Positions 17,039 to 33,705 of a stretch of DNA of 33,705 bases are shown piece by piece (within the stretch, counting starts at the first letter, position 1; each line of letters starts with the position of its first letter). The notes beneath the pieces are model-generated. The model was not told the origin of the DNA, searched no databases, and was given only the letters and a program-made list of their open reading frames with translations. Source of the stretch: Opitutia bacterium (lineage in GTDB: Bacteria > Verrucomicrobiota > Verrucomicrobiia > Opitutales > Seribacteraceae). Location of the stretch: assembly GCA_002689665.1 (NCBI GenBank), contig NZEN01000005.1, forward strand, positions 129,443-163,147, read 5' to 3'. The translations under genes and the position numbers were made by a program.

Positions 17039-18093
17039 TGGAAAACTTTGAATGGAATAATCTAAGCTTGGGAGAACCATACTGGTTATTCTTACTTTTA
17101 TTACTTCCCGGAGTTCTTTGGTTATGTCGAAGAAAAAAGAAATTTCAGGCAATCAAATTTCCGAGTATCATAGATATTAAAAAGACGCGAAAATCATGGA
17201 AGGCAAAACTGCTTTGGCTTCCAAAGCTTTTTTTCTACCTAGGCCTAGTCCTCACTATATTATCAATTTCGAGACCAAGACTGGATCAAAGTACTCAAAG
17301 AATTGTGTCAAGTGGAGTAGATATCGTATTGGGCGTAGATTTATCGGCGTCTATGTTGGCCCTTGACATGAGTCCCTCCCCAAGCGAGCCAAATACCCGG
17401 TTGGATGTGGTCAAAGAGGTCATACAGGAATTTATTGAAAAAAGAAAATATGACCGTATTGGCTTGGTTGCTTTTGCGGTAGACCCCTATCTTGTTAGTG
17501 CTCTCACTCTGGACAAGGAATACTTGCAGTCCAACCTGGCAAGGCTGAAAGTTGGTCTTACACAGCAGACTGGTACCAACATTGGTTCCGTTCTGGCAGA
17601 GGGTATTAATAGACTTCGGACACTTGAATCCAAAAGTAAAATTCTTATTCTTTTGACAGATGGAAAAGACGAACCTGCTCCCAAACATAGTCCAATTATT
17701 TTTGCCGAAGGGGCCAAGAAGGATAAAATTAAAATCTATACCATTGCCATTGGTGCAAGCACCCGGACTCGTACCTATCTATACGATCCTAATGCAAGAG
17801 ATATTATGCGTTACGCAAATGGAACTCCAGTGGTAGAAGTCGCTGAATATCCCGTTGATAAAGAAATCCTCCAGGAAATCGCCCAAAGAACTGATGCCAA
17901 GTTTTTCGAGGCTGGCGACAAGTCAACTCTTCGTTCTATTTATGATGAAATCGACCAGCTTGAAAAAACTGATATTCAACTGGAAGTAAACGCGTTGTAT
18001 GAGGATCTTTATCAATGGCCACTGGCAAGTGGGTTTATATTGCTTATAATAGGATTTTTACTTGAACGATCAATTTTCCTGCGGATACCATGA
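17038..18093 (+). CDS. BatA-like vWA domain membrane protein
   Basis: Two N-terminal TMs, MIDAS DLSAS with GTN and TDGKD, and a C-terminal TM. Start overlaps the previous stop (TGATGG). Confidence 0.93.
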   Translation: MENFEWNNLSLGEPYWLFLLLLLPGVLWLCRRKKKFQAIKFPSIIDIKKTRKSWKAKLLWLPKLFFYLGLVLTILSISRPRLDQSTQRIVSSGVDIVLGVDLSASMLALDMSPSPSEPNTRLDVVKEVIQEFIEKRKYDRIGLVAFAVDPYLVSALTLDKEYLQSNLARLKVGLTQQTGTNIGSVLAEGINRLRTLESKSKILILLTDGKDEPAPKHSPIIFAEGAKKDKIKIYTIAIGASTRTRTYLYDPNARDIMRYANGTPVVEVAEYPVDKEILQEIAQRTDAKFFEAGDKSTLRSIYDEIDQLEKTDIQLEVNALYEDLYQWPLASGFILLIIGFLLERSIFLRIP

Positions 18094-20507
18094 ATATTTT
18101 TTCTGATCAAAGTTTTCTCTACATCTCCCTAGGTGTATTACTTTGCATTTGTATCCTTTATTTTTGGAGCGAAAAAACTAAGAAAAGTAAAATCCTGCAA
18201 CTTACTTCCCTTAAGCTACTACCGAGAATTGCACCCAATTACTCAACCAAAAGAAATCTTATCAAATTTGGAGTTTTTACTTTGGGATTAATCCTCCTTT
18301 CCATCGCATTAGCCCGCCCACAATGGGGTATAGAGAGAAGAACCAATCAACCGACTGGAATTGATCTAATTATAGCACTCGATGTCTCCAAAAGCATGTG
18401 GGCTAGGGATGTTAAACCCAACCGTCTTGAGCGAGTCAAACTAAGCATTTCAAACTTAATTGAAAATGTAAGAGGAGATCGAATTGGACTTATCGCATTT
18501 GCAGGAAATGCATTTCTTCAATGCCCGCTTACCCTAGATCATCAAGCTTTCATCAACACTTTGAATAATATACAGGTTGGTACCATAAAAATGGGAGGCA
18601 CCAACCTCGCAGCCCCTATAGATGAAGCATCCCGATCATTTTCGCTAGATGATCGTGACCGTTTTTTGGTTTTAATTTCAGATGGAGAAGACCTGGAAGG
18701 GGAAGGTTTGAAAAGGGCAAAAGAAGCCGCTGAGGAGGGAATTAAAATCTATACTATTGGTATCGGGTCCAAGTCTGGAGCCAGAATACCCACTGACCCA
18801 ATAAATTCACCTGCAAGGAATTTCCTACTTAATCCCGAAGGAAAAACGGTTATCACTCAACTTGATGATACCTCGTTAAAAGCAATTTCTTCGGAAACTA
18901 AAGGAAAATACTATCCCCTCGGCTCTACCGGCCAAGGTCTAGTGTCCGTATTCAAGACCCTCAAATCAATAGGAGAACAAAAAAAACGGGAACAAATTTC
19001 ATCTGAAATCCCAGTGGAAAGATTTCAACCATTTGTTCTGCTAGGACTATTCGCCCTACTCTTTAATCAGCTCACGCCTTCTACAGTTAGAGGGGCATCC
19101 GATCTAAGTTCGCTCATTCTTATCATAACGTTCTTTTATTTAGGCGGGTGCCTGAAACAAGATAATATTAGAAGAGCAGAAGAAGCTGCAAAAGATAATA
19201 ATTGGAATGAAGCAGCTAAAAACTATGAAATTGAGCTAAATGCATCCGCTGAAATGTCTTCAGCTACAAAAGCAAAAATTTTACTCAACACAGGTTTGGC
19301 TTACGCTCAAGCAGGTCGTTTTGACCAAGCAAAAGAAAGATTACAAGAAGCTATCGATCAAAGCTTAGATTCACCCAAGCTCCAATCGCAAGCTCTCAAT
19401 GAACTGGGAAATCTTTTTTACCGGAAGGCAAATCAGTGGCTGGACCAGCAAAATGTAATGCAAGCCAGAACAAGCTGGGAACAGTCCCGTAAATACTACG
19501 AGTCTGCCATCGAATTAGATGGAAATATCAAGGCAGAGGGTAACCTCGCATCTCTGAACAAACAAATCGAAGAAAGAATTAACTCATTGGTTTGCCTCAT
19601 TAATGGCTTAATTTGGAGGGATAAAAACGGAGATGGAATTGCACAGAAAAACGAAAACAGGCTTCAGGGAAAAGTTTTTTGGGATAAAAATAACGACGGT
19701 GAACACAACTCCTCCAATGAACCTTTTTTAAAAACAAACGCATCCGGTCAGTTTGCGTTTGAATGGATTTCTTCGGTTTATCCAATTTCTTTGTCTTTGG
19801 ATTCTGAACTTATTGAGGATGAAAACCAAAAGATCGAACTTCTTGTTCCCGTTTTTCCTGCACCTCCACCTCCACTGAATGCAGACTCAGTCAAAAACCA
19901 TTCAAAGACCATTCAAAAAGCAGGAGCAAGTTCTGTACTATTACCTTACAGAGCTGCACCGATTATTCGAGGAAAAGTTTGGATGGATAAGAATGGAGAT
20001 ACCCAGAAAAATGAAGATGAAGGACCATATTCTCAGGCAAAACTATTCCTCGATCAAAATGGTAATTTTAATTTAGATGAGAATGAAACATCATTCACAC
20101 CGGATTCGAATGGTTCCTTCCTACTCCCACTTCCACCTGGCCAGTATTCACTCTGCATCGCACCAGACAACGCAGATGCGAATATCACTTTTCCGATTGA
20201 GGAAAAAAAGGCTTATCTCACATGGGTGGATTATGAATCTCCTTCCGATAGCCTTCTTTTTGGAGTACAAGATAATCAACAACAAGACTCTCAGTCATCC
20301 GAAAATAATCAGACTCAACAACCAAAAGCTGGAGGCCAAGATAATGATCAAAACACCCAAGAATCAGAATCAAGTGAGAATACTCCCCCTGAAGAAGTAA
20401 ATGCTCTTTACGAAAGATTATTGCAGGAAATGGAATCAAAAAGCAAAAACTTGAATGACGAAAAACAGAGAGCAATTGGTACAATACCGAAGGGAAGGGA
20501 CTACTGA
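18090..20507 (+). CDS. BatB-like vWA domain fused to BatC-like TPR and SdrD-B/EF-hand-like repeats
   Basis: MIDAS DVSKSMWARDVKPNRLERVK, MGGTNLA, SDGED; then TPR-like helices (RAEEAAKDNNWNEAAKNYE...LLNTGLAYAQAGRFDQAKERLQEAI) and DKNGDG/DKNNDG repeats. ATGA overlap with the previous gene. Confidence 0.9.
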   Translation: MNIFSDQSFLYISLGVLLCICILYFWSEKTKKSKILQLTSLKLLPRIAPNYSTKRNLIKFGVFTLGLILLSIALARPQWGIERRTNQPTGIDLIIALDVSKSMWARDVKPNRLERVKLSISNLIENVRGDRIGLIAFAGNAFLQCPLTLDHQAFINTLNNIQVGTIKMGGTNLAAPIDEASRSFSLDDRDRFLVLISDGEDLEGEGLKRAKEAAEEGIKIYTIGIGSKSGARIPTDPINSPARNFLLNPEGKTVITQLDDTSLKAISSETKGKYYPLGSTGQGLVSVFKTLKSIGEQKKREQISSEIPVERFQPFVLLGLFALLFNQLTPSTVRGASDLSSLILIITFFYLGGCLKQDNIRRAEEAAKDNNWNEAAKNYEIELNASAEMSSATKAKILLNTGLAYAQAGRFDQAKERLQEAIDQSLDSPKLQSQALNELGNLFYRKANQWLDQQNVMQARTSWEQSRKYYESAIELDGNIKAEGNLASLNKQIEERINSLVCLINGLIWRDKNGDGIAQKNENRLQGKVFWDKNNDGEHNSSNEPFLKTNASGQFAFEWISSVYPISLSLDSELIEDENQKIELLVPVFPAPPPPLNADSVKNHSKTIQKAGASSVLLPYRAAPIIRGKVWMDKNGDTQKNEDEGPYSQAKLFLDQNGNFNLDENETSFTPDSNGSFLLPLPPGQYSLCIAPDNADANITFPIEEKKAYLTWVDYESPSDSLLFGVQDNQQQDSQSSENNQTQQPKAGGQDNDQNTQESESSENTPPEEVNALYERLLQEMESKSKNLNDEKQRAIGTIPKGRDY

Positions 20508-20522
20508 AGAAACTCCTGTGTT

Positions 20523-22307
20523 ATGAGTATCAAGACTACCCTACATTTACTATTAATCTTTTCATTAGGGATAATCGCCCAAAAGACTGCCGCTCAAACT
20601 ATCCGTGTTGAGGCGATCTTTACTCCGTCTTCCATATCAAGTTCATCCCGCACAGTTTACAAGGTAGTTATTCACGGTACACAGCAAAATCCCCAAGGAA
20701 GCCTTCCGCAAGTCCCAGGCCTTAGAATTTCAAACAATCCTCAATCGCTACGCTCAGCTAATTTCATAAACGGAGTACCATCGGTGCGCGTGGAGTTAAA
20801 TTTTCAAGTTCAACCTCAAAGAACCGGAAATTTTACGGTTCCATCCTGGAAAGTCATGATCGAGGGTAAAACTTATCAAGTGCCCCCAGCAACTCTTCAA
20901 GTGCTCGACCCAAGTCAACAAGAGAAACAGGCTCAACTAGATCTAAGACAGGCTGCATTTTTGAAGCTACCATTTCCCAGATCCTATTTTTTTGAAGGTG
21001 AGACCATTATGACTTCCCTCACTCTTTTCATCTGGGACCGATTGCCCGTCAATCGAATTGAAAATGCACCAACAAAAATTGGTGAATCTTTTTCATGTAA
21101 TAATCTGGGCAAGTGGACAGAAGAAAAAAGAAATGTATCAAGAAATGGCAAGATTTACTCCACCTTTACATGGCCCGTTGCCCTAACTGCAGCTATGGCG
21201 GGCACCAAGGAAATCAGTTTTAATGTTAATCTGAGGGTAAGGGTAAACTCGAGAAAAAATTCACCCTTTTCTAGTCCTTTCTTCAATGACCCTTTCTTTG
21301 GATTTGGACGAGAAGAATCCTTGACCGTGGAACTTCCGAGAAAATCAATTGAAATCAAACCCCTTCCATCGACCAACAGGCCCAGCGATTATTCCGGTGC
21401 GATCGGAAATTTTCGCGCTCAATATTCTGTGGATTCCAAGCAGGTCGAAGTGGGAGATCCAGTTCGTCTAAATTTTAGCATCGAAGGGAAAGGGAATTTT
21501 GCTGCAATCCCTGCTCCTACACTCGAATCTAACGAAGAATTTAAAATTGGACCTCCTGCCTTTTTATTTCAAGGAAATGAAGAAACTAAATCCGAAGGCA
21601 GACAGAACTTCGAATTTATCCTGACTCCACAAAAAGCTGGAAATTTAAAAATAACTCCAATCAACTTTTCCTATTTCGATCCCATACAGGAGAAGTATTC
21701 AACCATTATTGGAAACGAAATTAATCTATTTGTGAAACCAGGAGAAAAGTGGATTGAACCTCCAAACCAAATCGAATCGCAGAATTCTATTCCCTCGACT
21801 ATTGCTATGTCGACTAATGATTTATTTCAAACAGCGAGCGATCCGGGGATATGGCACTCAAACCTACAGCTCGAGCCTATCCAAAGCAATTACTGGTTTT
21901 GGACCTTTCAAATATTGCCGCTATCAGGAACGCTAGCATTTGGCTTCCTCGGTTGGAAGAGAAGGAATAAATTTAATGAAGATTTTCGTATCAAAAAAGC
22001 CAATTTAAGCCGAAAATTGAATGAAAGCGCCGACCATCGTGATCCAACAGGCTTCTTCCGAGCGTTCAAAGATCTCACGAGAATGCAGATAAGCAAAAAA
22101 GACAAAAGTCGAAATACATTCGCATTTTCAAGTGATGAACTGATCTCATTCATAAAAGAACAAAAGTTCGACAAAAATTTGATTATCGAAATCGAAGAAA
22201 TGCTCAGACTAGGCGATGGCTTGGAATTTGCTGAATCAAGTTCTCAGGAGCTAGATTTTAAAAGTCTCAGAGGCAGGGCTTCTGAAATTCTCAAAAAATT
22301 ATCATGA
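20523..22307 (+). CDS. BatD-like protein
   Basis: Signal peptide; IRVEAIFTPSSISSSSRTVYKVVIHG...; repeated Ig-like segments with VEVGDPVRLNFSIEGKGNFAAIPAP; C-terminal TM. Confidence 0.88.
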   Translation: MSIKTTLHLLLIFSLGIIAQKTAAQTIRVEAIFTPSSISSSSRTVYKVVIHGTQQNPQGSLPQVPGLRISNNPQSLRSANFINGVPSVRVELNFQVQPQRTGNFTVPSWKVMIEGKTYQVPPATLQVLDPSQQEKQAQLDLRQAAFLKLPFPRSYFFEGETIMTSLTLFIWDRLPVNRIENAPTKIGESFSCNNLGKWTEEKRNVSRNGKIYSTFTWPVALTAAMAGTKEISFNVNLRVRVNSRKNSPFSSPFFNDPFFGFGREESLTVELPRKSIEIKPLPSTNRPSDYSGAIGNFRAQYSVDSKQVEVGDPVRLNFSIEGKGNFAAIPAPTLESNEEFKIGPPAFLFQGNEETKSEGRQNFEFILTPQKAGNLKITPINFSYFDPIQEKYSTIIGNEINLFVKPGEKWIEPPNQIESQNSIPSTIAMSTNDLFQTASDPGIWHSNLQLEPIQSNYWFWTFQILPLSGTLAFGFLGWKRRNKFNEDFRIKKANLSRKLNESADHRDPTGFFRAFKDLTRMQISKKDKSRNTFAFSSDELISFIKEQKFDKNLIIEIEEMLRLGDGLEFAESSSQELDFKSLRGRASEILKKLS

Positions 22308-23116
22308 GAATGCTTCATTTTTCCCTAACCTGCTTTTTGAGTATCATTTCAGTTTTTGTATGGGCGAGCTCAAAAGAACAGCTTTTCTATGACGCAGTAC
22401 GATTCGAGGCTACTGGTAATATTAATCAAGCCATTGAAAACTATGAAAAGATCTTAGAACAGGCTAGTTCTGCAAACCTTCATGGAAATTTAGCGAATTT
22501 ATACTACAAGAAAAGTGATTACGGAAGATCAATCCTACACTACCGCAAAGCACTTTTGCTGGACGGAAATAATCGGGAATTCCTATCAAACCTTTCTTTC
22601 GTGTGCAGGACAGCCAATCTGGAAAATACCGATCCTCTAAAAAATAATTTCATCGATGGCTTTTCCAATAATTTTTGGAAGGGATTCCTAGTACTTTTTC
22701 TTTGGTTTGGGTTACTCCTTATTAGCTTTTTATTTTTTCTACGAACAACCAACAGATCGATTATTTTTACTTGCTTGGCATGGGTGGGAGGAATAACTCT
22801 GCTTGCCTTTGTTGTTTTTGATTCAACTAAGCATGAAAGCCTAACTGAAAGTCAGGTTATCGCACTCCTCGATAGGAAACAGGGTGACAAGAATGCATCT
22901 GCAACTATACCGCTGAGAAGATTTGCTGCATCTTCCAGCACTGCAAATGCATCAGTTCGTGCCGGAGAATCTCTATTTGTCGACCAGTCTCAACTCGAGG
23001 GATATCAATCTCACCAAGGTCCAAACTCCCGAAATTGGCTTTTAGTAAGAACTGCCGACAACCTCAAAAAAGGCTGGGTGCGACAGGATGAGGTCGGGTG
23101 GATTTTAAAAAACTAA
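22304..23116 (+). CDS. BatE-like protein: TPR plus TM helices plus SH3-like C-terminus
   Basis: TPR ([57 protein letters not shown]), two TMs, C-terminal SH3-like [24 protein letters not shown]. Confidence 0.85.
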
Positions 23117-24576
23117 ATCAATTGCGAAGAATCAATCTTCTCTATCGAAACAAAATTTACTTTATAATCTTCAACTAAAGATTTTCGTAATTGCTCCGGT
23201 AGTTGTTCGACTCTTTTACTTATTTCTGACTCGTCCTGTATTTGTCTATCATCTTTGACCTCAGGTTTTTTTTCTGTTATTTCTTTTTTCGCAATCTCAA
23301 CAGGTTCAGCAATTTCTTCGGCAACTGGATCGACAGCGCATATTTTGTCCACGGGCGGTTTGTCAACTACATCTGAAAGATTTGACTCTAAAGGAGTACT
23401 TATCTCTTTAGTATCTACAGCACGGACCTTTGAATCATGTTCCGTTATCCCAGCAAATTCAGTTTTTTTTTTGAGTTCCTTTTCCGGCAAAACTTTTGAA
23501 ATTTTGCGAATAACTTGATCTATGGACCGAGACTTGCCCGACTCCACGGCCCGAAAGAGTGTAACTTCAAAATTGGTTTTTTCCGAAAGGCCTAATCGCA
23601 CCAGTTCATCCCCTTCTCTCAACGCATCCAATATACGAACAATTTGCTCAGGATAAGAATTATTACCCCCGTCACTAAGTTCAAGAACAAGTTTCTGTCT
23701 AAACTGATCACTTAGATCCTGCAATGCACGATAGAAATCCAGACCCTCTTGTGAAAAGGCATCGGTTTCACTAAGGATTGATCCGTAATCTGCAGAAAGA
23801 ATAGCACGAGCCAATAATTCAATTCTATCCGCAGATACCAAGCCATAAACTTCCAAGACATTTTGCTGGGTGATTGAGTTCCCGCAGAAAGAAATCATTT
23901 GATCCAAAATACTTTGTGCATCACGCATACCGCCCATAGCCATTCGAGCAATCGCCTCGAGTGCAGGTGGTTCCACTTCTATATTCTCTTTCGCACAGAT
24001 CTCATTTAATTTAAGCGAAATAAGATCGATCGGAATTGAACGAAACTCGAATCGCTGACATCTTGAAACAATAGTGGGTAGAACTTTGTGCGATTCGGTT
24101 GTGGCAAAAACAAACTTAACATGAGGAGGAGGTTCTTCCAAGGTCTTGAGCAAAGCATTAAACGCTGCCTGACTAAGCATATGAACCTCGTCTATCACAT
24201 AAATCTTAAATCTACACTGTGCTGGGGCATACTGACATTCATCCCTTAAATCCCTTACTTGATCGACCGAGTTATTGGAAGCTCCGTCAATTTCGATAAC
24301 ATCCAGACAACGGCCTTCCATAATCGCTTTTCCAATTTCAGAATCATCAGGAACATAAAGAGAAGGACCGTCCTCCCAGTTAAGCGACTTCGCAAACAGC
24401 CTGGCAGAGGTGGTTTTTCCCGTTCCTCTCGGCCCCACAAAAAGATATGCATGAGCAATTCTGCCTAAATCTATAGCATTACCAAGAGTTTTCACCACAT
24501 GATCCTGTCCGACTAGTTCGGAGAACTGTTGCGGGCGCCATCTGCGGGCAATGACTTGATAAGAAGAATCTGCCAT
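23113..24576 (-). CDS. dnaX: DNA polymerase III subunit gamma/tau
   Basis: [76 protein letters not shown]. Start set to MADSSYQ (24576), because the longer ORF start at 24672 lies inside the SRP RNA. Confidence 0.97.
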
Positions 24577-24648
24577 TAATCCCTTTTGTTCGTAATTTAA
24601 AAAACAGGCAAGATAAACTAGCTCATTTTTAAAACTGTGCACAAAAAA

Positions 24649-24744
24649 GGCCAGGCACCCCACAGCACACACTTCTCCTAACTACCGCTGCTTCCTTCCG
24701 GACCTGACGGGGTTCGTTCGAGACGCGTCGCATGGGACCCGGCC
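24649..24744 (-). ncRNA. ffs: Bacterial small signal recognition particle RNA (4.5S type)
   Basis: Minus strand reads GGCCGGGTCCCATGCGACGCGTCTCGAACGAACCCCGTCAGGTCCGGAAGGAAGCAGCGGTAGTTAGGAGAAGTGTGTGCTGTGGGGTGCCTGGCC then T6. Contains the canonical GTCAGGTCCGGAAGGAAGCAGC domain IV core; the ends pair. Confidence 0.95.
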
Positions 24745-24869
24745 TAAATTTCAATAAATTCTAATATTCAATGCGTGGCAAACTCTTTCATTATCCTAAT
24801 TTCAGCGTTCATAGTGCCGTTAACCAATTTGTTTTTGCCATGTGGAATAATTTCACGAATAATTAACAA

Positions 24870-25967
24870 ATGGGAAATTCTTTTGGGACATTGTTTCGCA
24901 TCTCCTCCTGGGGAGAAAGTCATGGTGGTGGAATAGGAGTGGTGATTGATGGCTGCCCACCTCGCCTGGACTTATCTGAGGAGGATATTCAGCCTTGCCT
25001 AGACCGAAGAAGACCTGGTCAAAGCAAACTAACAACCCCCAGGGACGAAGCGGATCAAGTAGAAATTTTATCCGGCACTTTTGATGGAAAGACGCTCGGA
25101 ACGCCAATCGCACTGCTTGTGAGAAATAAGGATGCCCGCCCACAGGCTTATGATGAAATGAAGACTAAGTTTCGGCCGTCTCATGCAGATTTTACTTATC
25201 AAAATAAATTTGGAATTCGAAACCATGAAGGAGGGGGGCGATCATCCGCCAGGGAAACCATAGCTAGAGTTGCAGCAGGGGCTATTGCTAAAAAGCTTCT
25301 CAACATGGATCAAGTTAATATCTCAACTTATATAGACCGAATTCACGATATCGAATGCCCTAAGTTGGAGGAAGTTCCAACTCTAGAAAGCATCGAAGTC
25401 TCTCCCACACGATGTCCACATCCGGAAACCGCAGCTAAAATGGAATCTCGAATACTCGAAGCCAAAAAAGCAGGAGATTCCGTTGGCGGAACTATAGTTT
25501 GTCGAGTCAACGGTCTACCAATTGGATTGGGAGCACCAGTTTTTGACAGGCTCGAGGCTGATTTAGCAAAAGCCATGATGTCTCTCCCGGCGACCAAAGG
25601 ATTCGAAATCGGCAGTGGATTCAATGGAACTTATCTCAAAGGCTCCGAACACAACGACTTATTCGAAGAAAGAGAAGGGAAAGTAAGGACCAAGTCAAAC
25701 CGATCGGGAGGAGTGCAAGGTGGAATCAGTAATGGAGAGGAGCTTTACTTTCGAATAGCCTTCAAACCGACGGCAACGGTTTTACAAATGCAAAAAACCG
25801 TTAACGAAAAAGGCGAAAATACTGAACTTATGGGACGAGGAAGGCATGATCCCTGCGTTTTACCCCGGGCTGTGCCAATTGTCGAAGCGATGACTGCATT
25901 GGTCTTGATCGATCACAAAATGAAGCATCATGCCCAATGCTTATCTTTTCAAAATGATGGCTTGTGA
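24870..25967 (+). CDS. aroC: Chorismate synthase
   Basis: [79 protein letters not shown]. Confidence 0.98.
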
Positions 25968-26655
25968 GGATCGTTTCTTGTATATTATTTTGGAATCTCC
26001 TGGCTCAGGAGGCTTTGAATTTTTAGTAAACGGCTTAAACGACTTCAATCATCAGGGTTTTCATTTTCTCCTTCCTGAGTCTACTGAACATACAATTGTT
26101 CCCAGCCAAAAGGAAAGTGTTTCTTTTTGGCCGGATAATGAGTCGACAGATATATCATTCAATCTAAGTAAAAATGAAGAAAATATTGATTTATTTCTAT
26201 TCCTCTCCCCTTCAATGAATATAAGTGATCAATTTGAATCCCTCTTAAGTCAAACTGACAAACCTTCCAAGATCGAAATTGGCAGGATCATTTCTTTTTT
26301 GGATGCAAATATTTTACCTGAGATATCCACACAATTTCAGGTATGGTTGGATGCAGTAGCCCATTTTTCCGATGTATTATGCTTTTCGAACCGAAGCAAT
26401 CAAAACGGGAAATCGGTAAAGATGATAATTGATCGGTACGAGAATATGCGTTATCCAATGGAGACTTATTTGATATCTCAAAACAAAAAGGGTAAACTCT
26501 TGAATATTCTCAACCCAACCGCACGAAGAATTACTCACATTTTCGATTCTCCCGATTTACTTGATTCGGAGGAGACACCTGAGGATGACCCTTATCTAAA
26601 AAAATTAGCTAACGGCAAAAGAGAAAAAGTAATCCCAATACCCTTTCCTCGATAA
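25954..26655 (+). CDS. Hypothetical protein overlapping the aroC 3' end
   Basis: Long ORF on the same strand. The ATG-ATG at 25954/25957, near the aroC stop, is a more plausible start than 25930. No confident family. Confidence 0.7.
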
Positions 26656-26704
26656 TTCTACACTCGACAATTACTCTAAACACATTTTCTTATGTTAATT
26701 TAAT

Positions 26705-26791
26705 GCCGGGGTGGCGGAATTGGTAGACGCGCTAGATTCAGGTTCTAGTGTCCGCAAGGATGTGCGAGTTCAAATCTCGCCCTCGGCACCA
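26705..26791 (+). tRNA. tRNA-Leu (anticodon CAG), CCA encoded
   Basis: GCCGGGG acceptor pairs with CCTCGGC; anticodon stem CTAGA/TCTAG with loop TTCAGGT; long variable arm GTGTCCGCAAGGATGT; T arm GCGAGTTCAAATCTCGC; terminal ACCA. Confidence 0.95.
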
Positions 26792-26833
26792 AAAGAAAGT
26801 AAATCTTTGGATTAAAACTTCAAAAAAAGCTTG

Positions 26834-26861
26834 TTTTCAACAATCTTTTATTCAATATGAT
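26834..26861 (+). promoter_or_regulatory. Possible sigma70-type promoter (TTTTCA-16-TATGAT)
   Basis: -35-like TTTTCA (26834-26839) and -10-like TATGAT (26856-26861), just upstream of the preferred start at 26884. Confidence 0.3.
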
Positions 26862-26883
26862 GTTAAATTCCCAAACTAACAAT

Positions 26884-28395
26884 ATGAAGAATCTTATTAA
26901 ACTACTGCTCTCACTGCTTTTTTTACACTCGTTCTCTCTCGCTTTCGGTCAAGAAGAGGACTCTGAGGAAGGCGGTGAATCCACGGCAGAGGCGTCTGTT
27001 ACAGGAGCTGCAACAGCCCCTGCAGTATCGGCACCAGGCTCGATCGAAAGTAATCCTGTGGTAGGTGCACTCCGCTCCGGGATTTCTATCAGTGCTATTA
27101 AATCCCTTGGCATTAAAAATCTTAGATCTCTATATGCTCAGGGCGGATTCGATAATCTGATAAGCACACTAGAAGCAGTAGCTAGTTCAACGGGTGATAT
27201 TGATTTAGAGTTACTATCAGCCCTTTCAGCTTACGATAAGTACATCAAAACTGCTGCTCTTGATGTCTCATCTATGTCTTTTTACACTTCTAGCGACAGA
27301 CCCGCTTTGGAAGCAGCAGCACTACTTGCCAGCACACTTCTTTCTGATCGTTCAGTCACTTCCGCTTCTGATTTATCTCCTAACATAAATGTTTCTTCCT
27401 TCACCACTGACTACAATATTGCCTTTGTGAATTTGCTTTCCAAATATGGTGCCATTGGTTCAAACGGCGATTCAGTAGTTGCAGAAATCCTTACGGGTTC
27501 ACTAAGCGATGCCCTTGACTTAGGTAGTAATACCAGAACTTCAAATTACCTAAGCTACCTTGCTACTTTCACTGGGAGTGCCTCATTTGGAGACCTCGAC
27601 GCAACATCCTCGGTGCTCGATATTCCTGTAGATAACATTTCAATTACTCCTGGAGCTATTGTATCTATAGGTTCAACTTCAAGCGAAAGCACTGTGGATG
27701 TGTCCACACTACTTGGTAAGGCAGCGTCAGATCATAGAGATTCTAGGAAAGTTCATGTAATTGGAGCAGCTAAAGATATGAAATTCTTCGGAGATGTTAT
27801 ATTTTCCAATTCTAATGATGCTGAGGACCACGCCCTTGTCCTAGGTGCTGCTGATGATTTTATGCTCGATGGAAGCGATGTCACCTACACAGGTTCTAAT
27901 CTTGGATTTGGTGCTGGTGGTGCTGATTCTGACAGCATGTACTTAGTTAATACTAATATCACTACTGGAGGAAACCTTGCGGCTGCTACCCTTGGGACAC
28001 TCAACATCAGCAATGCAAACTTCGAAGTAGGGAATGGTGGTCAAAATTCCGACCCCGACAATGTTTATCTATACGCAAATGAATTGATTCAGGTTAATGG
28101 GCTTAATTTTTCAGGCAGTCGATTGGATGATGTATACATGGAAGCAATCACAATCAACCTTAAAGATGTCGCATTTCCTAACACGGCTGATGTAATTCTG
28201 AAGAGTAGGGATGGAACAGTTAATTTCCCTGATACTTTTTCTAATTATAAAGTCGGTAGCGTAAACTTAACAAATGTTTCTCACGGTGGAACTGTGTTAA
28301 CAGAAAGTCATTTTGACGGGGTTGCCGGGCACCATGATTCATCCATTCGCTTACCGAACGGTACTGCAGCCGTTAAAATCCGTAAGCAATATTAA
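26884..28395 (+). CDS. Secreted hypothetical protein with repetitive, probably beta-helical C-terminal half
   Basis: Signal peptide MKNLIKLLLSLLFLHSFSLAFGQ. C-terminal half is rich in N/D/G/T with beta-helix-like strand repeats (DVIFSNSNDAEDHALVLGAADDFMLDGSDVTYTGSNLGFGAGGADSDSMYLVNTNI...). The longer ORF starts at 26857. Confidence 0.75.
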   Translation: MKNLIKLLLSLLFLHSFSLAFGQEEDSEEGGESTAEASVTGAATAPAVSAPGSIESNPVVGALRSGISISAIKSLGIKNLRSLYAQGGFDNLISTLEAVASSTGDIDLELLSALSAYDKYIKTAALDVSSMSFYTSSDRPALEAAALLASTLLSDRSVTSASDLSPNINVSSFTTDYNIAFVNLLSKYGAIGSNGDSVVAEILTGSLSDALDLGSNTRTSNYLSYLATFTGSASFGDLDATSSVLDIPVDNISITPGAIVSIGSTSSESTVDVSTLLGKAASDHRDSRKVHVIGAAKDMKFFGDVIFSNSNDAEDHALVLGAADDFMLDGSDVTYTGSNLGFGAGGADSDSMYLVNTNITTGGNLAAATLGTLNISNANFEVGNGGQNSDPDNVYLYANELIQVNGLNFSGSRLDDVYMEAITINLKDVAFPNTADVILKSRDGTVNFPDTFSNYKVGSVNLTNVSHGGTVLTESHFDGVAGHHDSSIRLPNGTAAVKIRKQY

Positions 28396-28415
28396 TTTCC
28401 GCAAATTTAAACATA

Positions 28416-29393
28416 ATGAAAAAAACATCATTACTTCTCGCCTTACTCAGCTCTTCACTTGTTTCTAACGCACAGACTGCTGCTGAGGCAAGCCAGTCGA
28501 GAATCCAGGGTACTCAAAGGGAACAACCAGCTCCTGTGACTGGTAAAAATATCACCGCACAAGAAGCCGAAGGCACAAACCCCGCAGAGAGTGACACAGG
28601 AGCCCAGAGACCTATTTCATTAAAGAAAAGTGGGATATCCTCCTTCTTTGGTTACGATACAAAATTATTCTACAGAGATAATCCTCTTTCAGTGGATAGT
28701 GCACTTAGTGAGATGAAAACTGGCATGTGGACGAATACTTTCTTCGGAGGTGCCGGACTAGGTGTATTCGATATGGACGACGCAGTCATAACCCCATACA
28801 TAGGAGGCAGTTATTCTATCAATGACTATTTGGAAACTGCTGTTCAAGAACTTGAATTGAATTACAACTCGACTAATGCATATGCTTTACTATTGGCCCA
28901 ATTTTCAAGTGGATGGTCTGGAAGAATTGGTGTCAGCTATGCCATGGACAAAAACACGGAATCCGATACCGAAGAATATTCAGAATTCTTTCCGAATATT
29001 GGAATTATGAAGTCACACACTTTATCATCCGAAACTGTTTCTATATTTGATGCTTATGTTGGTAAGCATGCATCTACTTCTAACCAAAATCCTGAAGACA
29101 GTTTAGATAATTTTGAAGTTACTGCCTCGTATGGACTAATCCACAGACAAGGTGCTTTTATCATTAAGCCAAAATATTTATTGAGCTATAAATCATACGA
29201 TAATGGTGAGAACTCAAATAGAGAAGATCTTACACACAATCTTTCTGTAAAGGTCGAATACCCATTAGCTGACTCTTTGTCGCTTAGTCTCTTCTCTGGT
29301 TACACTATCCGCGAAACTAGTGGATACGAACTAGGGGGTGACTATGAGAATTTTGACGGAGGTCTTGGACTTACCTTAAATTCAAGATTCTAA
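28416..29393 (+). CDS. Predicted outer-membrane beta-barrel protein
   Basis: Signal peptide MKKTSLLLALLSSSLVSNAQ; alternating amphipathic strands; C-terminal ...FDGGLGLTLNSRF ending in Phe. Confidence 0.75.
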   Translation: MKKTSLLLALLSSSLVSNAQTAAEASQSRIQGTQREQPAPVTGKNITAQEAEGTNPAESDTGAQRPISLKKSGISSFFGYDTKLFYRDNPLSVDSALSEMKTGMWTNTFFGGAGLGVFDMDDAVITPYIGGSYSINDYLETAVQELELNYNSTNAYALLLAQFSSGWSGRIGVSYAMDKNTESDTEEYSEFFPNIGIMKSHTLSSETVSIFDAYVGKHASTSNQNPEDSLDNFEVTASYGLIHRQGAFIIKPKYLLSYKSYDNGENSNREDLTHNLSVKVEYPLADSLSLSLFSGYTIRETSGYELGGDYENFDGGLGLTLNSRF

Positions 29394-29414
29394 TTGTTTA
29401 GATTCAGCAATAAA

Positions 29415-30200
29415 ATGTTGTACTTCGCCGTTGCATCTGCAGCGGCGTTTTTTTTGCACGGGCAAAAACCTATAGTTAGTTTTGTCTCCGGTAAAGTAGA
29501 ATATGTTGAGTTAAAGAATGGTAAAGCCAACAATATTGGGACTCTTGAAAACAACTCCACAATTCAATCAAATCATCTGATTGCCACTGCCAAAGGTTCA
29601 AGAACAGAAATACAGCACGATTCTAAGATTTGGCGATTAGGTAGTCTATCTGCTGCGAAATGGATAGATGAGAACTCATTCTGGATTCACTCCGGAAGCG
29701 CATTATTTTGCTCAGAGGAAATTACCACCGTTCATTTCAGCTCAATTGATGCAAACGCTACATTCAAGGGGAAAGGAACAATCATAGTAGAAGCGACCAG
29801 TAATGGAGGATTCAAATTCATTCCACTTGAAGCAAAAGGAACAATAACTACCGTTAAAGGTGGTGATAAAGATATAAATGAGGGACAGATGCTACTTGTT
29901 TTAGGAAAACCCAGTGAATTTGGTGATGCATACGATCTTGATCTTACGTTACTCGTTAAATCGAGTCGTCTTCTTAACAGCTTTCCTACCCCGCTTGCCA
30001 CATTCGATCAGATTGGACTCGCTATTTATGTTCAGCAATTGAAACTAAAAGGGAAGTATGATGCCTTGATTGGGGATGCTACGACAAATGAAAATTTGCA
30101 ATTATGGAAGTTTGGTAAAAAGACTGGTTTAGAACCTCCAACTAAAAAAAGTCCAGAAAGTAAGAAGGGATTCTTTAAGAGTTTTTTTGGTAAGGAGTAA
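29415..30200 (+). CDS. FecR-like domain secreted protein
   Basis: Signal peptide MLYFAVASAAAFFLHGQ (ATG at 29415; TTG start at 29394 also possible). FecR-like VSGKVEYVELKNGKANNIGTLENNSTIQSNHLIATAKGSRTEIQHDSKIWRLGSLS. Confidence 0.7.
   Translation: MLYFAVASAAAFFLHGQKPIVSFVSGKVEYVELKNGKANNIGTLENNSTIQSNHLIATAKGSRTEIQHDSKIWRLGSLSAAKWIDENSFWIHSGSALFCSEEITTVHFSSIDANATFKGKGTIIVEATSNGGFKFIPLEAKGTITTVKGGDKDINEGQMLLVLGKPSEFGDAYDLDLTLLVKSSRLLNSFPTPLATFDQIGLAIYVQQLKLKGKYDALIGDATTNENLQLWKFGKKTGLEPPTKKSPESKKGFFKSFFGKE
29426..29455 (+). terminator. Rho-independent terminator-like hairpin plus T8, inside the 5' end of the FecR-like CDS
   Basis: CGCCGTTGCA-TC-TGCAGCGGCG (10-bp GC-rich stem with one G-U) followed directly by TTTTTTTT, about 33 bp after the beta-barrel gene stop. 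Confidence 0.75.
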
Positions 30201-30206
30201 ATTTCT

Positions 30207-30980
30207 ATGACCCCGCAAAGAAAGGTTCTTTTTCCAATTCTTTGCTTCATTTGCTTTATTTCACTTGGGTATTCTCTCAGCTTGAAGCAAAAAGCACTGA
30301 GAGGAGATACTGATGCACAAATACGAATAGGTTTCAATTACATGAACCAGACGCCGTCGGATTGGGCTAGTGTGATATTTTGGTTTCAACTTGCTTCCGA
30401 TCGCGAGCAGGCATTACCCTGTTTCTGGCTTGGTCATATATACCAAAATGGGCTCGGCACCCAAGTTAACCTATCGAAATCTATTTATTTTTATGAAAAA
30501 GGTGCCTCTCTCAAATCAACGGATTGCTCAAAAGCACTCGCCTACCTATACGATAAGCAATTTAGACACCTTGAAGCTAATACATGGAAGATCATTTATC
30601 TAGAATCATCAAAACATCATGCTAACCGATCTTCATTGGATAATATTGGATCTCTAAGTAGTCTCGAACATCAGCAAGCAAAGTTGCTTGCCGCCGAAAT
30701 TAAAAGTTCTTGGCTAGTTAAAAATGAAAGCCCAATTCTTGACCCAATAACGAAAGCTCCAGAATTTCGAAGCATAGCTCTAAGTAATGGAAATTATTAC
30801 AAAGGATATATTTTTAGAGACAAACCTCATGGATATGGAATGGTAAAATCCAATAATGGTGAAACTTACTTCGGACACTTTAAAAACGGAAGAATGCATG
30901 GCCCGGGACAGCAATTCTCAAGTGATGGTCAAATTATATTCAAAGGGCACTGGTCCAATGGCAAACCTCTAATCAAGTAA
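30207..30980 (+). CDS. Sel1-like repeat and MORN repeat protein
   Basis: Sel1-like repeats (ALRGDTDAQIRIGFNYMN..., FWLGHIYQNGLGTQVNLSKSIYFYEKGA) and MORN-like repeats (YYKGYIFRDKPHGYGMVKSNNGETYFGHFKNGRMHGPGQQFSSDGQIIFKGHWSNGKP). Confidence 0.85.
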   Translation: MTPQRKVLFPILCFICFISLGYSLSLKQKALRGDTDAQIRIGFNYMNQTPSDWASVIFWFQLASDREQALPCFWLGHIYQNGLGTQVNLSKSIYFYEKGASLKSTDCSKALAYLYDKQFRHLEANTWKIIYLESSKHHANRSSLDNIGSLSSLEHQQAKLLAAEIKSSWLVKNESPILDPITKAPEFRSIALSNGNYYKGYIFRDKPHGYGMVKSNNGETYFGHFKNGRMHGPGQQFSSDGQIIFKGHWSNGKPLIK

Positions 30981-31048
30981 CAGATGGGAAAGAAAACCTT
31001 ATCCGTTGAAATTTAAAATCTAAGATTTAAAATTAGAGCACTCCTATC

Positions 31049-31213
31049 TTATTGAATCCCGCTATCCTCGTTATGGTGATCCATGACACTATTCACATAA
31101 ATCTTAGTGGCAATAATCCCTAAAACTACGGCAGCGAGCATAATAACGGGAACCAACATTACTGGTAGGCGATTTTTGGTGTGTCCTAACTTAGGGTCGT
31201 CAATAAAGTCCAT
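31049..31213 (-). CDS. 54-aa single-TM membrane microprotein downstream of korB
   Basis: Minus-strand ATG to TAA: MDFIDDPKLGHTKNRLPVMLVPVIMLAAVVLGIIATKIYVNSVMDHHNEDSGIQ. One clear TM helix; below the 60-aa cutoff of the supplied ORF track. Confidence 0.6.
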   Translation of the reverse strand: MDFIDDPKLGHTKNRLPVMLVPVIMLAAVVLGIIATKIYVNSVMDHHNEDSGIQ

Positions 31214-31264
31214 ATTATATTACTAATTTTTGATATAGCTGAGGTCAAATATTTAGAGTAACCC

Positions 31265-32296
31265 CTACCCTTCAACTACCCAGGAATTATTTCCTGTTAG
31301 AAGTTCCTGAAGCGAACCTTCACCTTTTGCCCGGGCATGATCTATTTGGCCGACCACTGACTCTTCATAGGTTTCTCGCCCCTCCAGTTGTCTAAGTACC
31401 CCCAACGGTGTTGGATAAGTGGGATATGTCATTTGGGCAAGTAAAGTGGCGTATGCTGGATTGGGATCTTTGGGGTTATGCACCATTAAATCATCAGTAG
31501 AACATCCTTCTGATAATTCAACCGTCTCCATATTCAGCCCATTCAGTTTGATTCCTTTGGAATCTCCTTCGCCATAAACTAGAGGTTTACCTTCTTCAAG
31601 AAACATGACCTGATCATTACGAACATCTCTTCCTGTTACGGAATCAAAGGTCTTGTTGTTAAAAATGACGCAGTTTTGGAAGACTTCAACAAATGAAGTT
31701 CCCTTGTGGGCTTGTGCCGCCTTAAATGTCTCCACCATATGCTTTTGATCTGTATCAGTGGTGCGAGCAATGAAAGTGGCTTCGCTTCCCAAAGCAAAAA
31801 GTAAAGGGTTTACTGGATAATCAACTGAACCAGCTGGAGTACTTTTGGTTCTCTTTCCAACCTCAGATGTCGGACTGTATTGCCCTTTGGTCAAACCGTA
31901 AATTCGGTTGTTAAATAAGAGTACATTAATATCCAGGTTTCTACGCAGAAGGTGCAGAAGATGATTCGCCCCGATTGACAGACCATCGCCATCTCCGGTA
32001 ATCATCCAGACGGACAAGTCGGGATTAGCAACCTTTACTCCTGTGGCAACAGTTGGTGCCCTTCCATGAATAGTATGAAAGCCATATGTGTTCATGTAGT
32101 AGGGAAAACGGCTTGAACAACCAATTCCGCTCACCACAACAAACTTTTCCTTAGGTACACCAAGATCTGGCAGAGTTCGTTGCACCGCATTGAGGATAGC
32201 ATAGTCGCCACAACCGGGGCACCAACGAACATCGTTGGGAGTGACAAAATCTTTTTTCGTTAATGTACCTTCTTCAGTAGTTGTACTCATATTCAA
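31265..32296 (-). CDS. korB: 2-oxoacid:ferredoxin oxidoreductase beta subunit
   Basis: RWCPGCGDYAILNAVQRTLPDLG, GIGCSSRFPYYM, GDGDGLSIGANHLLHLLRRN, YGLTKGQYSPTSEVG. Confidence 0.93.
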   Translation of the reverse strand: MNMSTTTEEGTLTKKDFVTPNDVRWCPGCGDYAILNAVQRTLPDLGVPKEKFVVVSGIGCSSRFPYYMNTYGFHTIHGRAPTVATGVKVANPDLSVWMITGDGDGLSIGANHLLHLLRRNLDINVLLFNNRIYGLTKGQYSPTSEVGKRTKSTPAGSVDYPVNPLLFALGSEATFIARTTDTDQKHMVETFKAAQAHKGTSFVEVFQNCVIFNNKTFDSVTGRDVRNDQVMFLEEGKPLVYGEGDSKGIKLNGLNMETVELSEGCSTDDLMVHNPKDPNPAYATLLAQMTYPTYPTPLGVLRQLEGRETYEESVVGQIDHARAKGEGSLQELLTGNNSWVVEG

Positions 32297-32299
32297 TAA

Positions 32300-33705
32300 T
32301 TAGTTAGAAGATAGATGCTTAACAAATTCTTCTCGAAGTTCTACGACTTTGAAAGGTTTGCCCTGCAATTTATTAAATGAGATTATATCGCGAACATACT
32401 TTGCTTTTAGTATCGTACTCAATTGTCCCAAGTTCAGCTCCGGAACAATTACTTTTTTGAAAGATGATAATAATGTATCCAAATCATTGGGCAAAGGATT
32501 TAAGTGCCTGAGGTGGATACTGCTGACAGAAAAACCCTCATCCTGAAGGGCTTTAGTAGCTGAAAAGATTGCACCATAGGTCCCTCCCCAACCAATGACC
32601 AATAAATCACCTTCTTTTTCACCCTGCACGGCGATAGGATCATAACTCTTGGCGATGCCATTTATCTTTTCTGCCCGTAGTTGGGACATTTTCTCATGGT
32701 TTTCAGGGTCATAACTAACGCCACCATCTTCTGATTTCTCCAAGCCTCCAATCCGATGTTCAAGACCTGCTTGTCCAGGTATTGCCTGAGTACGAGCAAG
32801 AGTCTCAGGGTCCCTTTTGTAAACAATTAATTCTTCATTGGGGTCCGCAAATTTAGTATCGATCGCAGGAAGTTCAGAAACATTTGGTATTTTCCATGGC
32901 TCTGCCCCATTGGCTACATATAGGTCACTTAGCAAAATAACTGGTGTCATGTAAGTAAGAGCAATTCGACTCGCTTCGATGGCACAATCAAAACAATCTG
33001 AAGGAGAATGAGCGGCAATAACAGGCAAAGGGCAGTCTCCGTGCCTGGCATAAAGGCTTTGCAATAAATCACTCTGTTCTGTCTTCGTAGGCAGTCCAGT
33101 ACTTGGTCCCCCTCGTTGAACATCGACAATGACAACGGGCAGCTCTGTGATTGATGCCAAGCCAATAAACTCACTTTTCAAACACATCCCCGGGCCACTT
33201 GTCGCTACGACGGATAAGTCCCCAGCGAAACTTGCTCCAATCGCCATTCCCATGGCAGCGATTTCATCTTCAGCCTGTAAAGTTTTCACACCAAATTTTT
33301 TCAAAGCAGACAAACCCTCCAGGATAGGAGAAGCTGGAGTAATCGGATAACCCGCATACAAAAGTTCCCGATTTGCCTGCTTGGCTCCGGCTACGAGTCC
33401 GTAGACCAACGCTTCATTTCCTGAAATCTTACGATAAACACCTGCCTGCACAGGTGCCTTAGATACCTGATAACGGTTACGGGCAGTTTCCATCGTATGG
33501 CCTAAATTAAATCCCGCCCTAAGAGCAGTTGAATTTGCAACTGCAAGTTCGGGAAGTTTTTTACCCCACTTATCACTGAAAAATTTTAATGTTGGTTCCA
33601 ACGGGCGACCATATACATAGTACATAAACCCAAGGGCGAAGAAATTCTTACAACGGGCCTTGTCAGAAGGTTTCAGGGGACTTTCCTTCAGCGCCTCCTT
33701 GGTTA
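32300..33705 (-). CDS. korA: 2-oxoacid:ferredoxin oxidoreductase alpha subunit (5' truncated by window edge)
   Basis: YAGYPITPASPILEGLSALKKFGVKTLQAEDEIAAMGMAIGASFAG, TSGPGMCLKSEFIGLA. Frame stays open past 33625 (...ALKESPLKPSDKARCKNFFALGFMYYVYGR). Confidence 0.93.
   Translation of the reverse strand, partial: TKEALKESPLKPSDKARCKNFFALGFMYYVYGRPLEPTLKFFSDKWGKKLPELAVANSTALRAGFNLGHTMETARNRYQVSKAPVQAGVYRKISGNEALVYGLVAGAKQANRELLYAGYPITPASPILEGLSALKKFGVKTLQAEDEIAAMGMAIGASFAGDLSVVATSGPGMCLKSEFIGLASITELPVVIVDVQRGGPSTGLPTKTEQSDLLQSLYARHGDCPLPVIAAHSPSDCFDCAIEASRIALTYMTPVILLSDLYVANGAEPWKIPNVSELPAIDTKFADPNEELIVYKRDPETLARTQAIPGQAGLEHRIGGLEKSEDGGVSYDPENHEKMSQLRAEKINGIAKSYDPIAVQGEKEGDLLVIGWGGTYGAIFSATKALQDEGFSVSSIHLRHLNPLPNDLDTLLSSFKKVIVPELNLGQLSTILKAKYVRDIISFNKLQGKPFKVVELREEFVKHLSSN

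Follow-up and report, generated by a model that had tools for sequence, protein, structure and literature searches.

A terminator-like hairpin conserved within the signal-peptide code of a FecR-like gene in marine Opitutales

In Ruminiclostridium, the stoichiometry of operon products has been shown to depend on internal terminators, which lie in non-coding gaps between the genes (PMC9045158). In Escherichia coli, a terminator near a stop codon is repressed by ribosomes and reaches full efficiency beyond about 27-30 nt; a terminator located 30 bp after an AUG also works, terminators in the first 100 nt of an ORF keep full strength, and over that distance ribosomes rarely catch up with the polymerase (PMC4824070). 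A terminator predicted within a gene is normally dismissed as a false positive. For the in-gene element described here, comparative evidence suggests a real and old terminator that has been kept across a bacterial family. No description of a conserved terminator inside a signal-peptide code was found in the literature searched, which included few of the subscription papers; as far as that literature shows, the natural and conserved dual use of such a code as a terminator is undescribed.

The window (the whole stretch of DNA analysed, 33,705 nt) comes from a genome of 2.1 Mb in 100 contigs, whose named relatives are uncultured marine Opitutales/Opitutia of the Verrucomicrobiota, such as TMED44, AG-892-I21 and IN921. 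The genomes compared are draft MAGs and SAGs. The features of the locus are listed in Table 1. The cassette consists of a gene for a 512-aa protein, an outer-membrane beta-barrel-like gene, a FecR-like gene and usually a Sel1/MORN-repeat gene, and beyond it lies a convergent gene that was read from its translation as a 2-oxoacid:ferredoxin oxidoreductase. This order around the terminator is kept in most orthologous loci with enough flanking sequence, and the Sel1/MORN gene was unmatched in some g2 and g3 loci. The triad of 512-aa, barrel and FecR-like genes is also a multi-copy paralogous cassette across the family, and its diverged copies are without the T-tract terminator (L032-L039, L041).

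Table 1. Coordinates of the cassette genes, the candidate starts and the terminator-like element in the window
Feature	Coordinates	Strand	Remarks
First cassette gene, 512-aa secreted/repeat-like protein	26857..28395	+	Directly 5' of the barrel gene in relatives and in paralogous cassettes
Outer-membrane beta-barrel-like gene, 325 aa	28416..29393	+	Stop TAA at 29391-29393; C-terminal ...LTLNSRF is barrel-typical
FecR-like stand-alone protein, 268 aa, N-terminal signal peptide	29394..30200	+	Alignment, structure model, PDB matches
Probable start TTG of the FecR-like gene	29394..29396	+	Directly abuts the barrel stop TAA; orthologue comparison
ATG, probably an internal Met	29415..29417	+	Not conserved in relatives
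Terminator-like hairpin CGCCGTTGCATCTGCAGCGGCG	29426..29447	+	Codons TTC GCC GTT GCA TCT GCA GCG GCG (FAVASAAA)
T8 tract	29448..29455	+	Encodes FFL together with the next G
Sel1/MORN-repeat gene	30207..30980	+	Next after the FecR-like gene, same direction

The Pfam search gave no match for the 512-aa protein, and the barrel protein had weak family matches only. The best PDB matches of the FecR-like protein were FecR-type anti-sigma factors (4m0h, 4m0n and 6ovk; probability 1.00, E about 5e-3, TM 0.35-0.38), and its structure model consists of a helix at residues 2-22 followed by beta-strands (pLDDT 69). None of 11 FecR-like orthologues matched the FecR family PF04773 in Pfam at E values up to 0.1. 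The name 'FecR-like' follows this moderate structural match and comes without a Pfam match.

The hairpin has a stem of 9 bp with seven G-C pairs and a loop of 4 nt, and its predicted free energy is -16.0 kcal/mol. A G+C-rich hairpin of at least 7 bp with a short loop and a U-rich tract directly after the stem are the usual marks of an intrinsic terminator, and both are present. The original prediction, a strong rho-independent terminator by sequence, is thus borne out at the sequence level, although the stem drawn there (10 bp with a 2-nt loop) contains a last pair that is sterically impossible. The element was rightly placed downstream of the barrel stop; 32 nt, not 33, separate the stop from the stem. 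The hairpin and the T tract were also correctly read as encoding FAVASAAAFFL in frame within the FecR-like ORF, and as belonging to a signal peptide that would be lost with any later start, as no start 3' of the hairpin keeps the hydrophobic leader.

This site is the strongest terminator-like one in the right-hand 13.7 kb of the window (20000-33705). The genomic background for terminator counts was 1.24 Mb of contigs from the same genome, in which only three clean hairpins (at least six G-C pairs and a T tract) lie in the sense strand of ORFs. One of the other two is an artefact of start calling, and the FecR-like one lies in frame in a signal peptide. The clear intergenic terminators of this genome are mostly found 19-27 nt after a stop. 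The exact hairpin pattern was searched in 42 family genomes and was found at the FecR-like locus only, which rules out a lineage-wide repeat of the stem. In Rfam, the only match was to SorY over 29386-29454, below threshold (27.6 bits, cut-off 111), and this was taken as generic similarity to terminators.

Two other terminator-like sites were observed. Within the window, GCTTTGGCTTCCAAAGC TTTTTTT at 17211-17227 lies inside a VWA-domain gene and looks like an in-gene terminator by chance. At locus L086 (12528-12552 on the minus strand, G000:C13), a strong hairpin with a T tract lies 37 nt past the stop of a DUF-like gene and directly precedes a co-directional barrel gene without a clear ATG, leaving little room for a promoter. 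This element is a second candidate for an operon-internal terminator; it is kept in about ten genomes of the same genus (L179-L189) and is intergenic in most of them. Its listing as an in-ORF terminator was rejected, because it is an intergenic terminator covered by an over-extended ORF.

Orthologues were collected from 42 family genomes and one genome scan, and were aligned at the barrel stop. Among about 25 family genomes in which a relative could be read, 19 keep the hairpin and T tract at the same spot (20 loci), and so does one further genome (L099). In total, a hairpin with a T-rich tract immediately behind it lies in frame within the signal-peptide code of the FecR-like gene at 21 loci, and the distance from stop to stem is 22-38 nt in the 17 loci tabulated. 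Three unrelated stem sequences occupy this place in the family: GCCGYTG.. in most of the genus and part of g2; GTGCTCCC/ATGCTCCC.. in G012, G013 and the second copy in G016; and GGCGAGGG.. in g3. In genome G009 (L018 near 1490-1520; G009:C37:18273-18304), A5 and T5 flank the element, which thus resembles a terminator on either strand. The family can do without the terminator, because four relatives of one sister genus, g4, and a divergent g2 type are without the T tract and have at most an intergenic hairpin; the g4 and divergent g2 loci that were read mostly have a longer gap 5' of the FecR-like gene. Six loci without the T tract (L013, L014, L016, L063, L108 and L109) have a hairpin (e.g. 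GCCCTTGTATTCTACAAGGGC) just past the barrel stop, and their FecR-like gene starts further downstream.

The stem itself shows signs of selection. In the common stem, 97.1% of the cells are paired and five of the eight pairs have changed on both sides, whereas control stems slid along the alignment have at most 66% of their cells paired; the covariation score was reached by none of 500 shuffles. On a tree reconstructed from the rest of the protein, in which some inner branches are weak and the orthologues are related rather than independent samples, two of the pairs need at least four and at least five changes. Synonymous recoding equalled the strength of the real hairpin in 0-5.3% of draws per locus at 20 loci (no match in 300 draws at ten of them), values which are not to be multiplied as the loci are related. 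When the FecR-like protein of the window was recoded synonymously 1000 times, 999 versions gave a weaker hairpin than the real one. Codon use in the T tract is also biased: Phe is encoded by TTT in 31 of 31 cases (19 loci) compared with 68% elsewhere in the same genes (p 1e-5), and Leu by TTR in 17 of 17 compared with 44% (p 1e-6). These results support selection of the hairpin and T tract as an intrinsic terminator; both have been conserved against the alternative Ala and Phe codons, a comparison that had been suggested when the element was first noticed. Moreover, the RNA stem seems to have constrained the signal peptide, and in places appears to dictate its amino acids, because some of the pairing changes are not silent: GCT..GCG (A..A), GTT..ACG (V..T) and ACT..GTG (T..V) differ in the residues on both sides, and GTT..GCG (V..A through G-U) also occurs.

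The hairpin leaves the reading frame open in all hairpin-bearing loci, and its indels preserve that frame (hairpins of 20, 22 and 25 nt). The ATG had been proposed as the likely start of the FecR-like gene; among the 17 loci, however, an in-frame ATG 5' of the stem is present in this species only. The first in-frame start is TTG in 15 of the 17 and CTG in the other two, where CTG appears to be used, and its position relative to the barrel stop ranges from -4 to +6 nt. The tight tie between start and upstream stop, which had been offered for TTG as the alternative, therefore holds in all 17 loci. Judged from these alignments, TTG at 29394 is the probable start of the gene, and the start is less clear in the two g3 loci. 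A start at TTG or CTG places K/R before the hydrophobic core in 15 of 16 loci, and gives a start-to-stem spacing of 26-35 nt in the loci with the common stem.

The reading that fits these observations best is that the element is probably a selected operon-internal intrinsic terminator, which would end most barrel transcripts and let through a small fraction that sets a low, translation-coupled expression of the FecR-like and Sel1/MORN genes. It would serve the 512-aa gene/barrel cassette, and its position, about 30 nt after the barrel stop, matches that of the other terminators of the genome. The FecR-like gene would since have placed its start on or across that stop, and the terminator thereby doubles as the code of the signal-peptide h-region. 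Most RNA polymerases would halt at 29450-29456, so that barrel mRNA is abundant and ends in a stable hairpin, and a minority of read-through polymerases would produce mRNA for the FecR-like and Sel1/MORN proteins; the Sel1/MORN gene is expected on the same read-through transcript. FecR-like translation would depend on ribosomes that finish the barrel gene and then re-initiate at the TTG, and FecR-like protein would be held at a constant, low level relative to the barrel protein. Such a ratio-setting role, retained from the original prediction, is plausible. The co-direction of the genes, the abutting start and the lack of a conserved promoter are consistent with co-transcription by read-through. 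A counterpoint is that terminated RNAs would contain a start codon but no stop, and non-stop ribosome complexes would result.

Several other explanations might account for the element. It had been suggested that a ribosome initiating on the FecR-like gene covers the 5' arm of the stem, allowing translation-coupled antitermination; in this regulated attenuator, a re-initiating ribosome would disrupt the hairpin and read-through would report translation or coupling. The FecR-like start overlaps or abuts the upstream stop in all tabulated loci, and ribosomes are known to suppress the terminators that they overrun (PMC5021804). With the start 26-35 nt upstream, however, a ribosome initiating at TTG cannot cover the stem, which undercuts this proposal and favours termination by default with leak-through. 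Only an elongating ribosome, after rapid re-initiation, could bring about antitermination, but ribosomes seldom reach the polymerase in the first 100 nt, and the E. coli terminator 30 nt past a start behaves normally (PMC4824070). Single-sequence folds of six species also gave no common helix that could act as a competing antiterminator. Regulated antitermination is therefore considered unlikely. A combined version, in which a family-wide dual-coding element has been shaped at its signal-peptide residues by termination pairing and is tuned in its read-through by re-initiating ribosomes, would place an attenuator in a structural gene rather than in a leader; it is doubtful, though somewhat easier to entertain.

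The hairpin could instead act mainly as a 3'-end stabiliser or processing site that shields the barrel mRNA from exonucleases, for which the cip-cel operon of R. cellulolyticum offers stem-loops for comparison (PMC10311766). The T-tract-less relatives G034, G029 and G058 still have a hairpin just past the barrel stop, and since several such relatives keep it, a 3'-stabilising role may predate the terminator. As the main function it is improbable, because the T tract follows the stem directly in 21 of 21 hairpin-bearing loci and shows codon-level selection of its own. Even less probable is a promoter of the FecR-like gene inside the barrel gene, with the hairpin as its leader attenuator, as in E. 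coli frdD-ampC: in this species, 29353-29382 resembles a promoter at 9 of 12 positions, but this match is not conserved, and a search of the barrel 3' end for a conserved promoter found none, with scores no better than those of codon shuffles (mean p 0.64). In a T-rich genome, signal peptides rich in Ala and Phe readily resemble terminators, and hairpins that arise from the protein sequence alone average about -7 kcal/mol; the covariation, the unrelated stems at one place, the recoding tests and the T-tract codon bias nevertheless rule out amino-acid composition as the cause, and chance is hardly credible. Operon-internal termination with leak-through thus remains the preferred reading. If so, the locus shows how a compact genome can fit a ratio-setting operon terminator into zero non-coding space, and it offers a clean natural test of ribosome against RNA polymerase at a terminator between a stop and an abutting start.

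The frdD-ampC attenuator of E. coli resembles the FecR-like case in that an upstream gene's terminator stands before the gene of an exported protein and limits it; in contrast to the FecR-like element, its terminator lies in an untranslated leader and the promoter is inside frdD. The ABC-transporter terminators of Ruminiclostridium cellulolyticum are also similar, with a stem-loop and U tract after the first, abundant operon gene and a read-through that sets the ratio of the downstream products, as is proposed here (PMC9045158). Those terminators are found in long non-coding intergenic regions, whereas the FecR-like one is protein-coding, within the signal peptide of the next gene, whose start touches the upstream stop. 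The pyrBI-type leader-peptide attenuators share a terminator hairpin that overlaps translated codons (PMC4824070, PMC5021804). Their short leader peptide senses supply through the position of the ribosome at pause sites, whereas the ORF overlapped here encodes a complete exported protein, and the folds examined showed no antiterminator. The geometry equals that of the E. coli construct W48, in which tR2 lies 30 bp after the start, early in the ORF and more than 27 nt past the upstream stop, and works efficiently (PMC4824070); W48 is synthetic, whereas the FecR-like element is natural and conserved in its family.
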